A stretch of 64,000 bases of DNA from Catellatospora sp. IY07-71 (GTDB lineage Bacteria; Actinomycetota; Actinomycetes; Mycobacteriales; Micromonosporaceae). Location of the stretch: positions 7,933,001 through 7,997,000 of the forward strand of contig NZ_AP023360.1 of the NCBI RefSeq assembly GCF_018326265.1, given 5' to 3'. A program made the translations under genes and the position numbers. The notes under the pieces are model-generated. The model saw only the letters and a list, made by a program, of their open reading frames with translations, did not search any database and had not been told where the DNA came from. Numbering within the stretch: the stretch's first letter is position 1; every line of letters begins with the position of its first letter. Shown here one piece after another: positions 18,264 to 22,309 of this stretch.

Positions 18264-18836
18264 GTGCCCAGGGTGAGTCAGGACCAGCTCGACGCGCGCC
18301 GCCACGAGATCCTCGCCGCGGCCCGAGCCTGCTTCGCCCGCTACGGCTACGAGGGCGCCACCGTGCGCCGGCTGGAGCAGGCCACCGGCCTGTCCCGCGG
18401 CGCCATCTTCCACCACTTCCGGGACAAGGACTCGCTGTTCCTGGCCGTGGCCGAGGACGACGCGGTCGAGATGGCCGCCACCGTCGCCGCCAACGGCCTG
18501 GTGCAGGTGATGCGGGACCTGCTCGCGCACGCCGCCGACCCGGACGCGGCGGGCTGGCTCGGCACCCAGCTGGAGGTGGCCCGGCGGCTGCGCACCGACC
18601 CGGCGTTCGCGCAGCGCTGGGCGCAGCACTCGGAGGCGATCGACACCGCCACCCGCGAGCGCCTCAAGCGCCAGGCGTCGGCGGGCGTGCTGCGCGAGGA
18701 CGTGCCGCTGGACGTGCTCACGCACTTCCTGGAGCTGGCGTACGACGGGTTGGTCAAGCGGCTGGCGATGGGCGGCTCGGCCGACGACTTCGGGCCGGTG
18801 CTGGACCTGATCGAGGAGACGGTCCGCCGCCGCTGA
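18264..18836 (+). CDS. acnR: TetR family regulator, AcnR type
   Basis: A 190-residue TetR-family repressor. The N-terminal HTH reads ILAAARACFARYGYEGATVRRLEQATGLSRGAIFHHF, shown here only to place the domain at residues 14-50; the key recognition-helix residues are SRGAIFHHF. The C-terminal ligand domain is helical. GTG at 18264 starts a typical actinobacterial AcnR N-terminus (VPRVSQDQLDARRHEIL), whereas the longer open frame overlaps the divergent DUF2637 gene. The assignment to aconitase control rests on family resemblance and on the shared 20-bp motif upstream of acnA. Unusually, it lies 5.6 kb from acnA instead of next to it. Confidence 0.82.
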   Translation: MPRVSQDQLDARRHEILAAARACFARYGYEGATVRRLEQATGLSRGAIFHHFRDKDSLFLAVAEDDAVEMAATVAANGLVQVMRDLLAHAADPDAAGWLGTQLEVARRLRTDPAFAQRWAQHSEAIDTATRERLKRQASAGVLREDVPLDVLTHFLELAYDGLVKRLAMGGSADDFGPVLDLIEETVRRR

Positions 18837-19166: not shown

Positions 19167-19271
19167 ATGGGCGCCCTCAAACCGTGGCATCTCGTTCTCA
19201 GCAGCGTCTGCTGCCTGGCCGTCGTGGCGGTGGTCGCGCTGGTCGTCGTGCTGGTAATGCGTAAGAGATGA
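19167..19271 (+). CDS. Small membrane peptide, 34 residues, coupled to ddaH
   Basis: ATG at 19167 opens a 34-residue frame, MGALKPWHLVLSSVCC then a long Val/Leu/Ala helix ending RKR. Its TGA overlaps the ddaH ATG (ATGA at 19268-19271), a classic translational-coupling arrangement. The MGALKPWHL start is like actinobacterial TatA proteins, but the amphipathic helix and tail of TatA are missing. It is likely a single-pass membrane peptide with a cytoplasmic basic end; two Cys lie at the start of the helix. The function is unknown. It is too small for automatic calling and would be missed. Confidence 0.55.
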   Translation: MGALKPWHLVLSSVCCLAVVAVVALVVVLVMRKR

Positions 19272-20035
19272 GCAACCGCACCGTCGCGCTGGTCCGCGAA
19301 CCCGGCCCGCGCCTGCCCGAGGGCATCGTCACCCACATCGGCCGCAGCGAGGTCGACCTCTCCCTGGCCCGCGCCCAGCACATGGCGTACGCCGACGCGC
19401 TGGCCTCGGCCGGGTGGGAGGTCTATCCCGCGCCGTCGGCCGACGACTGCCCCGACGCCGTCTTCGTCGAGGACGCCGTGGTGGTCTGCGAGGACCTGGC
19501 CGTGCTGACCCACCCCGGCGCGCCCGAGCGCCGCCCCGAGATCGCTGGCGCCGAGACCGCCGTGCGCGAGCTGGGCCTGCGCGTCGCGCACATCACCGGC
19601 CCCGGCACCCTCGACGGCGGCGACGTGCTGCAGGTCGGCTCGACCGTCTACGTCGGACGCGGCGGGCGCACCAACGGCGAGGGCATCCGCCAGCTGCGCG
19701 AGCTGCTCGCCCCGCTGGGCCGCACCGTGATCGCGGTGCCGCTGGGCGAGGTGCTGCACCTGAAGTCGGCGGTCACCGCACTGCCCGACGGCACCTTCCT
19801 GGCCCTGCCGCACCTGGTGCCGGTGGAGCTGTTCCCCGCGGTGCGGCCGGTGCAGGAGGAGGGCGGCTGCCACGTGGTGCCGCTCGGCGGCGACCGGGTG
19901 CTGCTGGCCGCGTCCGCGCCGCGCACCGCCGAGCTGCTGGCAGACCTGGGCTTCACGCCGGTGGTGGTGGACATCGGCGAGTTCGAGAAGCTCGAAGGCT
20001 GCGTGACCTGCCTGAGCGTCCTGATCCGCCGTTAG
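19268..20035 (+). CDS. ddaH: Dimethylarginine dimethylaminohydrolase (DDAH)
   Basis: A 255-residue enzyme of the guanidino-modifying superfamily. It hydrolyses N-omega-methylated arginines to citrulline and a methylamine, presumably in the cytosol. PDAVFVEDA supplies substrate-binding acidic residues, GTLDGGDVL is the conserved second-blade motif, His164 in VLHLKSAV is the general base, and the nucleophile is Cys248 in GCVTCLSVL near the C-terminus. All key residues are intact. Its start overlaps the stop of the 34-residue membrane peptide. The next gene follows after 47 bp, so it may head or precede the TIGR04222-MNIO unit. Confidence 0.9.
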   Translation: MSNRTVALVREPGPRLPEGIVTHIGRSEVDLSLARAQHMAYADALASAGWEVYPAPSADDCPDAVFVEDAVVVCEDLAVLTHPGAPERRPEIAGAETAVRELGLRVAHITGPGTLDGGDVLQVGSTVYVGRGGRTNGEGIRQLRELLAPLGRTVIAVPLGEVLHLKSAVTALPDGTFLALPHLVPVELFPAVRPVQEEGGCHVVPLGGDRVLLAASAPRTAELLADLGFTPVVVDIGEFEKLEGCVTCLSVLIRR

Positions 20036-20052: not shown

Positions 20053-20085
20053 CATGGGAGCACCCTCGACGAAGGAGCTCCCATG
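20053..20085 (+). promoter_or_regulatory. Start-codon-sequestering hairpin ahead of the TIGR04222 gene
   Basis: CATGGGAGC (20053-20061) and GCTCCCATG (20077-20085) form a perfect 9-bp stem with a 15-base loop. The 3' arm contains the ATG at 20083 and the last base of the ribosome binding site GAAGGAG (20071-20077), whose remaining bases sit in the loop. If it folds in mRNA it would block initiation on the first gene of the MNIO unit until melted or bound. Confidence 0.5.
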
Positions 20086-21006
20086 GCGGACACCTGGGGC
20101 ATCCCCGGCCCCACGTTCCTGGCGCTGTACGCCGCCACCGCGGCCGTCGTGCTGGTCGCCACGCTGGTCCTGCGCTCCCGGGCGTTCGCGGGGCCGGAGC
20201 GGGTGCGCATCGACCAGCTGACCCCGCAGCACACCGCGTACCTCACCGGCGGTCCCGCGCGCGCCGTCTACGCCTCGCTGGCCTTCCTGCGCCAGCACGG
20301 CGTGCTGGAGAGCGAGAGCTCGGGCCGGCTGCGCCGCACCGGCGGGCTGCCGCCCGGCGCGAGCCCGCTCGACGCGGCCGTGCTGCACGCGGCGGGCAAC
20401 GGCGTACGCTCCGCCGACCTGCGCACCGACCACAGCGTCGCGTCGGCCCTGCACACCATCAGCGCCGACCTGGAGCGCAATGGGCTCGCGGTCAGCGCGG
20501 AGACGATCGCCCGCGCCCGCCGGGGGCCGCTGCTGCTGCTCGCGCTCGCCGCGCTGGGCGTGGTCCGGGTCATCGCGGGCCTGGCCAACGACCGCCCGGT
20601 CGGCTTCCTGGTGCCGCTCACCATCGCGGTCGCCGTGTTCGGCCTGATCCTGGTCTCCCGGCGCCCGGTGCGCACCCGCGCCACCGACCGTGCCCTGGCT
20701 GACACCCGCCGGCACTACGCCCACCTGAGCCCGCGCATGAAGCCGGCGTTCTCGACGTACGGCCCGGCGCAGACCGCCCTGGCGGTCGGCCTGTTCGGCG
20801 CGGCGGTGCTGTGGGCCGCCGACCCTGCCTTCGCGGGCGAATCCGCCATCCCGGAGGAGCGGGAGGACCACGGCGCGAGCGGCGGGTGGGCCGACGGCGG
20901 CTCGTCCGGCGGGGACGGCGGTGGCGGCGGCGACAGCGGCGGCTCGTCCTGCGGCGGCGGCAGCAGCTGCGGAGGCGGCGGCTGCGGAGGCGGGTGCGGG
21001 GGATGA
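20083..21006 (+). CDS. TIGR04222-type membrane protein with Gly/Cys-rich C-terminal tail; candidate MNIO substrate
   Basis: A 307-residue membrane protein. Hydrophobic segments lie near residues 8-30, 146-163, 168-188 and 230-250, with a soluble region (about 40-140) between the first two. The last helix ends in AFA-GE (residues 249-253), which resembles a signal peptidase site. An acidic stretch follows, then a Gly/Ser tail with Cys at 290, 296, 301 and 305, spaced C-GGGSS-C-GGGG-C-GGG-C-GG. Architecture and neighbourhood match TIGR04222 proteins. GAAGGAG five bases before the ATG fixes the start. The stop overlaps the next gene's ATG (ATGA). I infer that the tail is modified by the downstream iron oxidase; this is not demonstrated by sequence. 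Confidence 0.8.
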   Translation: MADTWGIPGPTFLALYAATAAVVLVATLVLRSRAFAGPERVRIDQLTPQHTAYLTGGPARAVYASLAFLRQHGVLESESSGRLRRTGGLPPGASPLDAAVLHAAGNGVRSADLRTDHSVASALHTISADLERNGLAVSAETIARARRGPLLLLALAALGVVRVIAGLANDRPVGFLVPLTIAVAVFGLILVSRRPVRTRATDRALADTRRHYAHLSPRMKPAFSTYGPAQTALAVGLFGAAVLWAADPAFAGESAIPEEREDHGASGGWADGGSSGGDGGGGGDSGGSSCGGGSSCGGGGCGGGCGG

Positions 21007-21827
21007 CCCCCTTGGCGGACCGGGGCGTCGGCATCGGCTGGCGCCCCGAGATCGCCGGGTTCGTCGCCGGGCTGCCCGGCCTGCGCTTCGTCGAGGTGAT
21101 CGCCGAGTCGCTGCCGCACTCCGGCGAGCTGCCCGACTCCCTGGCCGCGCTGCGGGGCGCGGGCGTCGCGGTGGTGCCGCACGGGGTGAAGCTGTCCCTC
21201 GGCGGCGCGGAGCCGGTCGACCCGCACCGTGTCGAGCACCTCGCCCAGGCCGCCCGCGCCACCGGCGCCCCCCTGGTCAGCGAGCACATCGCGTACGTGC
21301 GCGCGGGCGGCGTCGAGGCCGGGCACCTGCTGCCCCTGCCGCGCAGCCGGGAGGCCGTCGACGCGGTCGTCGCCAACGTGCGGCGCACGACCGCCGAGCT
21401 GGACGTGCCGCTGGCGCTCGAGCCGATCGCGGCGCTGTTCGACTGGCCGGACGACGAGCTGACCGAGGCCCAGTTCCTCACCGAGATCCTCGAGCGGACC
21501 GGCGCCGGGCTGCTGCTCGACGTCGCCAACGTGTACGCCAACGCGCGCAACCGGGGCGAGGACCCGCTCGACCTGCTGGACCGGCTGCCGCTGGAGCGGG
21601 TGGCGTACGTGCACGTCGCGGGCGGCCGGGTGCGCGACGGCCGCTACCACGACACGCACACCGACCCGGTGCCCGGAGAGGTGCTGGACCTGCTCGCGGC
21701 GCTGTGCGAGCGGCAGCGGCCGCCCGCGGTGCTGCTGGAGCGGGACGGTTCCTACCCGCCCGCCGCCGCGCTGCGCGCCGAACTGGACGCGCTGGCCGGC
21801 GCGACCGGATACCCGGCGATCACATGA
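21003..21827 (+). CDS. DUF692 multinuclear non-heme iron oxidase (MNIO)
   Basis: A 274-residue TIM-barrel enzyme of the DUF692/MNIO family (relatives MbnB, TglH, ChrH, BufB), which oxidatively remodels Cys or other residues in ribosomal peptides. Candidate iron ligands are in order: His60 in VVPHGVKLSLG, Glu94/His95 in SEHIAYV, Glu140 in ALEPIA, Asp173/Asn176 in LLLDVANVYANARN, His204 in VAYVHVAGG, and His216, Asp217, His219 and Asp221 in YHDTHTDPVP. It lacks a peptide-recognition domain of its own, which fits the separate partner encoded next. ATGA overlaps at both ends imply co-translation with its neighbours. The chemistry performed here is unknown. Confidence 0.88.
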   Translation: MTPLADRGVGIGWRPEIAGFVAGLPGLRFVEVIAESLPHSGELPDSLAALRGAGVAVVPHGVKLSLGGAEPVDPHRVEHLAQAARATGAPLVSEHIAYVRAGGVEAGHLLPLPRSREAVDAVVANVRRTTAELDVPLALEPIAALFDWPDDELTEAQFLTEILERTGAGLLLDVANVYANARNRGEDPLDLLDRLPLERVAYVHVAGGRVRDGRYHDTHTDPVPGEVLDLLAALCERQRPPAVLLERDGSYPPAAALRAELDALAGATGYPAIT

Positions 21828-22309
21828 CCGGCCCCGCCCGCCAGCCGGATCCGGCCGACCAGGTGGGCGGCCTCGCCCGGCGTCAGGAGGAGCTGGTCCG
21901 CTCGCTCGTCGCCGGAGCGGTGACCCCGAAGGGCTTCGACCCCGGTGCGGTGGCGGCGACCCGGGAGGCGCTGCTGCGCAAGCGCGCGGAGGAGGTGGCG
22001 CGGCACTGGCCCCGGCTGGCCACCTCCGCGGCGGCCCACCCCGGCGGCTGGCCCGCCGCGTTCGGGGCCTGGGCGGCCGGGCGTGCCCCGCAGGGCTCGC
22101 TGCGCGACGGCTGGGACTACGCCCGCGCCCTGCCGCCCCGCGACCCCGCCGCCGCCCGGGAGCTGGCGCTGCGCGAGCTGCTGTGGGAGTACGACGGCAC
22201 GACCGCGCCGAAGCCGAGACGTGGCCCGGCGCTGCGCCTCCACGCCGGGGAACTCTTCGTCCGCTGGCGCGGCCGCGCCCTCACCCGCAACCTGCGCCGC
22301 GCCCCCTGA
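21824..22309 (+). CDS. Putative MNIO partner protein, helical
   Basis: A 161-residue Arg/Ala-rich helical protein whose ATG overlaps the MNIO stop. Characteristic segments are LARRQEELVRSLVAGAVTPKGFD, here residues about 14-36, and EEVARHWPRLA, WPAAFGAWAAGR and GWDYARALPPRDP. My recollection is that a similar region is fused to the C-terminus of some streptomycete DUF692 proteins (SCO6045 type), which would make this a split version. In other MNIO systems a small partner (MbnC, TglI, DUF2063) binds the substrate leader; the same role is inferred here. It contains no catalytic motif. It ends 19 bp before family B copy 2. Confidence 0.7.
   Translation: MTGPARQPDPADQVGGLARRQEELVRSLVAGAVTPKGFDPGAVAATREALLRKRAEEVARHWPRLATSAAAHPGGWPAAFGAWAAGRAPQGSLRDGWDYARALPPRDPAAARELALRELLWEYDGTTAPKPRRGPALRLHAGELFVRWRGRALTRNLRRAP

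Follow-up and report, generated by a model that had tools for sequence, protein, structure and literature searches.

A TIGR04222 membrane protein with a cysteine-glycine tail as the probable substrate of a translationally coupled MNIO in Catellatospora

A 64,000-nucleotide stretch of the Catellatospora sp. IY07-71 genome (contig NZ_AP023360.1, positions 7,933,001 to 7,997,000 of the forward strand), referred to here as the window and numbered from its first base, contains three adjoining genes that may together encode a system for modifying the tail of a membrane protein. Gene 1 (20083-21006, forward strand) encodes a membrane protein of 307 residues, the putative substrate or scaffold, which matches the TIGR04222 profile over residues 15-244 with 150.3 bits against a cut-off of 43. 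Gene 2 (21003-21827, forward strand) encodes a 274-residue MNIO, an iron oxidase (DUF692, PF05114), which scores 266 bits with the Pfam profile MbnB_TglH_ChrH (PF05114; cut-off 25). The third gene (21824-22309, forward strand) encodes the putative partner of the MNIO, a protein of 161 residues. Pfam scans of gene 3 down to an E value of 0.5, and NCBIfam scans, gave no match; its assignment to PF26136 comes from the precomputed Pfam annotation in its database entry (P0121), and 'SCO6045-like C-terminal domain' is the name carried by its relatives. The stop codon of gene 1 overlaps the start codon of gene 2 in an ATGA at 21003-21006, and the same arrangement joins genes 2 and 3 at 21824-21827, as an initial annotation of the window had described. 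That annotation took the three genes to be one functional unit, a proposal supported by the comparisons below. A profile search of the host genome returned a single MNIO match and two further TIGR04222 matches, both below the cut-off, the one examined being a GPP34 protein. A relative of gene 1 in C. bangladeshensis is 93% identical across residues 1-301.

Hydropathy places four hydrophobic segments in the gene 1 protein, at residues 12-30, 150-168, 173-191 and 233-251. The last of these (TM4, 20779-20835, forward strand) closes with a juxtamembrane motif, DPxFA, which is conserved in an alignment of 51 homologues, with Asp247 present in 49, Pro248 in 46 and Ala251 in all 51. Beyond it extends a Gly/Ser/Cys tail (residues 252-307, 20836-21003, forward strand) that ends in -Cys-Gly-Gly. 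The cysteines at positions 290, 296, 301 and 305 noted in the initial annotation are all in this tail, and there are no others in the protein. Lysine plus arginine are concentrated in two loops, with averages over the 51 homologues of 15.4 for the loop of 120 residues and 5.9 for the one of 32 residues that precedes TM4; the N-terminus averages 0.04, and the 5-residue hairpin and the tail 1.0 each. Asp plus Glu average 4.4 in the tail. Because of this distribution of positive charge, the positive-inside rule predicts that the large loop lies inside and the tail outside the membrane. A structure model (mean predicted local distance difference test score, pLDDT, 86) is confident up to approximately residue 260 and shows the tail as disordered. 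These features support the view that the candidate substrate is a membrane-anchored tail carried by a polytopic protein. Weak matches to PF20990, a family of DUF2207 membrane proteins, were found in 17 of the 51 homologues (best E value 7.6e-5); gene 1 itself had no match, and we do not take the weak matches of its homologues as membership.

Gene 2 combines the PF05114 match with the full tri-iron ligand set of the MNIO superfamily. With the TglH set as reference (H71, H107, E151, D184, N187, H216, D229, H231 and E258), the ligands of gene 2, all encoded within 21003-21827, are H60, H95, E140, D173, N176, H204, D217, H219 and E246. Eight of the nine TglH ligands align directly with identical residues; the ninth, H60, lies beyond the TglH alignment and was assigned from its motif and an alignment with 3bww. 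All nine are invariant in 52 aligned MNIO sequences, which represent 50 distinct loci, the window and one other genome (G027) each being present twice. Among more specific models the best scores came from BufB (183 bits, equivalog cut-off 310) and then HvfB (157 bits, also below its cut-off), with the methanobactin enzyme MbnB at 28 bits against a cut-off of 325. A PF26136 partner accompanies the MNIO in 49 of the 50 loci, the single miss being at a contig end. In all 18 loci of a clade that we term Streptomyces-type the partner domain is fused to the MNIO, and both domains of these fusions are already annotated in databases. The suggestion that gene 3 is the probable partner of the MNIO is supported by this arrangement. 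In the literature searched we found no mention of PF26136, SCO6043, SCO6044 or SCO6046, and SCO6045 appeared only as a row in a regulon table.

Additional MNIO genes or matches occur in some of the genomes compared. G352 and G392 each have a second, weaker MNIO match. A second, different MNIO is also present in a genome of the window's own genus (L140, 3280-5139, reverse strand), where it follows a peptide of 77 amino acids ending in ...GRCVTNCGCSCIA that, from its sequence, looks like a short precursor of a ribosomally synthesised and post-translationally modified peptide (RiPP) with a C-terminal Cys.

The tail was compared across 119 of the 120 homologues listed among at least 1430 found, one (P0005, 187 amino acids) being excluded. 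Among these listed homologues 118 of 119 end in -Cys-Gly-Gly, compared with 3.5 expected when each tail is shuffled, and the lone exception (P0104) is marked 'partial' in its source. Gly-Gly follows directly after 392 of their 456 tail cysteines. The tail cysteine pattern, conservation of which had been proposed as a check, is therefore constant in its CGG end, while the number and spacing of the cysteines drift. We also ran a DNA pattern blind to protein family, two Cys-Gly-Gly units before a stop codon, on 61 genomes of relatives and obtained 49 matches with 45 distinct ends. Of these ends 29 are in frame and composed purely of Cys, Gly and Ser, and 25 of the 29 belong to TIGR04222 genes. 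All except one (28/29) lie in MNIO-bearing genomes, which make up 33 of the 61. In the host genome gene 1 is the only match.

Outside the MNIO genomes a pure Cys/Gly tail end occurs once, in a 341-codon open frame (L147, G038:C2:88267-88293) that terminates in GGGGCCGGGCCGG; the genome concerned has no MNIO match. From its appearance the product may be DsbA-like. Frames not belonging to TIGR04222 also occur in MNIO-carrying genomes; one (G052:C1:403962-404000) ends in CGGCGGCGGCGG, and two others (G020:C1:1466107-1466127 and G045:C11:290-310) end in CGGCGG. It is possible, judging from these ends, that the three are further tail substrates.

The two families are found together far more often than expected; their co-occurrence had been proposed as a check in the initial annotation. 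In 396 Actinomycetota genomes, with up to seven TIGR04222 candidates scored per genome, TIGR04222 genes over the cut-off occur in 26, MNIO genes in 30 and both in 25, compared with approximately 2 expected (Fisher p 1.4e-33, a value that ignores relatedness, 16 of the 26 TIGR04222 genomes coming from one genus). Counted by genus, MNIO genes are present in 8 of the 9 TIGR04222 genera, against 11 of 246 genera overall. Within the 61 relatives both families are present in 32 genomes, TIGR04222 alone in one (G030) and MNIO alone in one (G045). One of the TIGR04222 copies in G030 is Cys-less and the other has a broken frame with three in-frame stop codons (G030:C9).

Linkage was surveyed for 75 of the 76 TIGR04222 genes over the cut-off, G030:C9 being omitted, by reading each tail and searching the flanks for the MNIO and its partner. 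Outside the Streptomyces-type clade, at least two tail cysteines are present in 36 of 39 MNIO-linked genes versus 3 of 7 unlinked ones (Fisher p 0.006, with five genes at contig edges set aside), the other four unlinked genes having 0-1. The three linked genes that are Cys-less each have a tailed tandem copy. Considered by locus, every one of the 35 non-Streptomyces-type MNIO loci, 11 of which belong to the window's own genus, has a copy with at least two tail cysteines, and 34 have a copy ending in -CGG. This association supports the earlier suggestion that the tail is the probable substrate of the MNIO.

We consider it reasonably probable that the three genes form a translationally coupled modification unit, in which the MNIO and its PF26136 partner oxidise the tail cysteines of the TIGR04222 membrane protein. 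The partner would hold and probably activate the MNIO, which would act on the tail while it is still cytoplasmic. Insertion of the last hydrophobic segment would then carry the tail across the membrane, leaving it external but still attached to the protein. The most constant element is the free -Cys-Gly-Gly end, which probably serves as the point of entry or docking, and TM4 with DPxFA, which resembles an internal signal sequence, may function in recognition. Oxidation of cysteines in Cys-Gly steps before membrane passage is proposed because of the analogy with HvfB and HvfC, which convert cysteine to a copper-binding 5-thiooxazole and prefer a substrate that retains its Sec signal (PMC13419390). 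HvfB needs HvfC, and an artificial HvfB-HvfC fusion is highly active (PMC13419390); products related to those of HvfBC have a reported role in copper detoxification (PMC12668002). By the same analogy with the nearest characterised MNIOs, those of the BufB/HvfB type, the likeliest chemistry would be conversion of the cysteine of each Cys-Gly step to 5-thiooxazole, and the outcome may be a membrane-tethered tail that binds metal, perhaps copper. The initial annotation had likewise suggested copper binding, and had raised linked cysteines and a surface structure as further possibilities.

The closest MNIO models for the locus, BufB and HvfB, belong to the bufferin, HvfABC (oxazolin) and captophorin pathways of 5-thiooxazole metallophores, in which cysteine is likewise followed by glycine, in their EGKCG repeats, and precursor, MNIO and partner are encoded together (PMC12668002, PMC13419390). 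The precursors of these pathways, however, are secreted peptides with Sec signals, whereas gene 1 encodes a membrane protein of four segments, and their partners carry DUF2063 (PME-type 1) in place of PF26136 (PMC12668002, PMC13419390). The gene 1 protein departs from a bufferin precursor in its length of 307 residues and in an N-terminus before the first segment that is acidic and not basic, and Pfam gave no match in it to DUF2282 or another Buf domain. With BufB at 183 bits of the 310 needed and no DUF2063 match in gene 3, the enzyme and partner fall outside the bufferin type too, and the MbnB score likewise places gene 2 outside the methanobactin enzymes. A more distant comparison is with TglHI of 3-thiaglutamate biosynthesis, where TglI has a RiPP recognition element (RRE) domain (PMC10880893) and identity is low. 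The cysteine of TglA is added from cysteinyl-tRNA as the last residue (PMC9016710), whereas the tail cysteines of gene 1 are encoded and the end is -Cys-Gly-Gly.

Several observations weigh against tail modification as the function of the unit. The last 60 residues of the listed homologues contain anything from 1 to 6 cysteines at variable spacing, and two homologues have just one. A reversed-pattern control of the DNA search gave 25 matches against the 49, a comparison made prior to the frame and composition filter and with the control itself unfiltered. Unlinked TIGR04222 genes with multi-cysteine tails occur in G020, G050 and G027 (the last less than 1.5 kb from a contig end), each of these genomes having an MNIO elsewhere. 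Among the 18 Streptomyces-type genomes with the MNIO-partner fusion, five have an adjoining tailed TIGR04222 gene with 7-8 tail cysteines, two of these genomes carrying a tailless tandem copy as well, and the tails that exist end in Ser, Gly or Asp and not in CGG. The fusion is kept in the other 13: in 11 the nearest TIGR04222 protein is tailless, and in 2 no such protein was found. The 11 tailless proteins are shorter and lack both the last segment and the tail. Four of their genomes (G211, G230, G279 and G332) have an unlinked TIGR04222 protein with one tail cysteine, and the remaining seven had no second copy over the cut-off. All ten tailless loci checked retain the full set of nine iron ligands. 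We scanned within 1-3 kb of the 11 tailless loci for Cys-rich Gly/Ser stretches, defined as frames with at least four cysteines per 60 Gly/Ser-rich residues, and found none in ten; in the eleventh (L068) the only one runs in the direction opposite to the MNIO gene. The scan covered loci with a tailless TIGR04222 gene; L138 and L139 are the two loci in which no TIGR04222 gene was found.

Because the MNIO outlives the linked tail in the Streptomyces-type clade, the comparison of loci indicates that modification of the TIGR04222 tail cannot be the only role of the enzyme across the family. At least in this clade the MNIO would have another substrate or role. The initial annotation had held that conservation of the MNIO with loss of the tail cysteines would refute its proposal; such loss is seen in the Streptomyces-type genomes, 13 of 18 having no linked tail, and not elsewhere, where all 35 loci are tailed.

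The Streptomyces-type fusions (L068-L083, L138 and L139) often lie near conserved neighbour genes and near heme-gene-like ones. We take the conserved neighbours to be peptidyl-tRNA-hydrolase-like and DUF4142-like, and the others presumably to be hemQ and a porphyrinogen oxidase; the heme-gene neighbours may be simple synteny. The DUF4142-like and peptidyl-tRNA-hydrolase-like proteins were considered as alternative substrates and rejected, having 0-2 cysteines each. A small protein of approximately 60 amino acids with CxxC and CPVC motifs, which we assume to be zinc-ribbon-like, is encoded near the MNIO in L138 (8388-8576) and also in L071, L073, L076, L077, L081, L139 and L144.

It has to be considered whether the chief role of the TIGR04222 protein is to provide the MNIO-partner complex with a platform in the membrane, the real substrate being another protein or peptide and the Cys tail an unmodified metal or disulphide feature. 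Such a role would fit the tailless TIGR04222 genes that adjoin the fusion in 10 Streptomyces-type loci (the eleventh, in G439, being on a contig apart from the MNIO). It would also fit the five loci with tandems of Cys-less and tailed copies, and the several unlinked TIGR04222 proteins (G033, G447, G211, G279 and G332) that have Gly-rich ends with 0-1 cysteines. Outside the Streptomyces-type clade, however, tail and MNIO are nearly inseparable (35/35), and pure Cys/Gly ends are nearly restricted to MNIO genomes (28/29), and on balance we regard a pure platform as unlikely.

A further possibility is that TM4 and DPxFA act as an internal signal peptide, in which case signal peptidase would cut after Ala251 and free a modified peptide of approximately 56 residues, the 251-residue membrane part serving as a giant leader. 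Ala251 is invariant in the alignment, the -3 residue is Ala or Gly in 105 of the 117 homologues that fitted the motif search, and TM4 is the least hydrophobic segment (mean 1.64 versus 2.46-2.70), follows a basic loop and is itself without a basic residue. The preference of HvfBC for full-length HvfA, with its Sec signal retained (PMC13419390), would also be in keeping with a leader of this kind. Release by signal peptidase is weakened, however, because TIGR04222 copies that have no Cys and next to no tail (G384, G040 and G027) retain DPAFA. In addition, the -3 residue is Glu in 2 of 51 homologues and a good site is missing in some linked ones (L011, L059 and L062), and we think it distinctly improbable that the tail is released. 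That the tail is a functionless product of drift in low-complexity sequence, with GC-rich Gly codons turning from GGC into TGC, and is associated with the MNIO by mere operon linkage would suit its widely variable length, cysteine number and spacing but is scarcely credible given the -CGG end in 118 of 119 listed homologues, where 3.5 are expected, and the several unlinked relatives that are Gly-rich at the end yet have 0-1 cysteines.

The oxidation of a tethered cysteine tail, which we prefer to these alternatives, had been described in the initial annotation as differing from known MNIO products, but its novelty is not supported. A 2025 survey in Microb Genom (PMC12452194) proposed that the Cys-rich C-terminal segments of TIGR04222 proteins, which are predicted to be extracytoplasmic, might be targets of neighbouring MNIOs acting with PME-type 2 partners. 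It modelled a Micromonospora member, placed the clusters mostly in Actinomycetota, and contained another membrane-anchored proposal in the MerC-bufferin fusions, which have five predicted membrane segments (PMC12452194). Because TIGR04222 proteins are already listed there as putative MNIO substrates, the Catellatospora locus is an addition to a described kind, with which it has in common the family, the gene order TIGR04222-MNIO-small partner and the Gly/Ser tail cysteines. The survey gives PME-type 2 partners in at least 10% of TIGR04222-MNIO clusters and 490 of 1372 TIGR04222 genomes without an MNIO (PMC12452194), whereas here the PF26136 partner is present in 49 of 50 MNIO loci and TIGR04222 genes over the cut-off are nearly always accompanied by an MNIO. 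In a check on the PME-type 2 fold, a helical one that resembles DUF2063 but lacks its signature, gene 3 lacked a DUF2063 match and the domain was helical in a homologous fusion model, for which the fold-search matches listed cover the MNIO half only. The term 'CGG' is absent from the main text of the survey, where the eight uses of 'fusion' concern other proteins (PMC12452194). The published proposal is sharpened here by tails that end in -CGG, a partner present at nearly every locus, its fusion to the MNIO, and a lineage with tailless proteins. A TIGR04222 protein had also been noted in 2016 within a predicted bacteriocin cluster of Pseudonocardia (PMC5183585).

More tentatively, tethered tails of oxidised cysteine, as thiooxazole or otherwise, might constitute a distinct class of MNIO product, carried by polytopic proteins at full length. 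In this class the CGG carboxyl end would be the entry point, the TIGR04222 body with TM4 and DPxFA would replace the leader, and PF26136 would replace the RRE partner. The partner would have become fused in the Streptomyces-type clade, where the tail would later have been lost and the substrate then supplied in trans. Should the tail prove to be modified, the reach of MNIO chemistry would extend beyond small secreted peptides to proteins resident in the membrane, within a family spread across Actinomycetota, antibiotic-producing genera included. The CGG end, the natural fusion and the tailless Streptomyces-type loci make the published guess testable with respect to which cysteines are modified, what acts as leader and which substrate remains.

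Two genes lie upstream of the three-gene unit. The nearer (19268-20035, forward strand) stops 47 bases 5' of gene 1 and has a sub-threshold match to arginine deiminase (ADI; 22.1 bits against 22.8). Because, of the loci L033-L040, it is grouped with the unit in just the three from Catellatospora (L033, L034 and L040), this ADI-like gene is probably outside the unit. The other gene (18264-18836, forward strand) encodes a TetR-type regulator, relatives of which precede TIGR04222 in six of the eight loci L033-L040, an arrangement that may reflect synteny.

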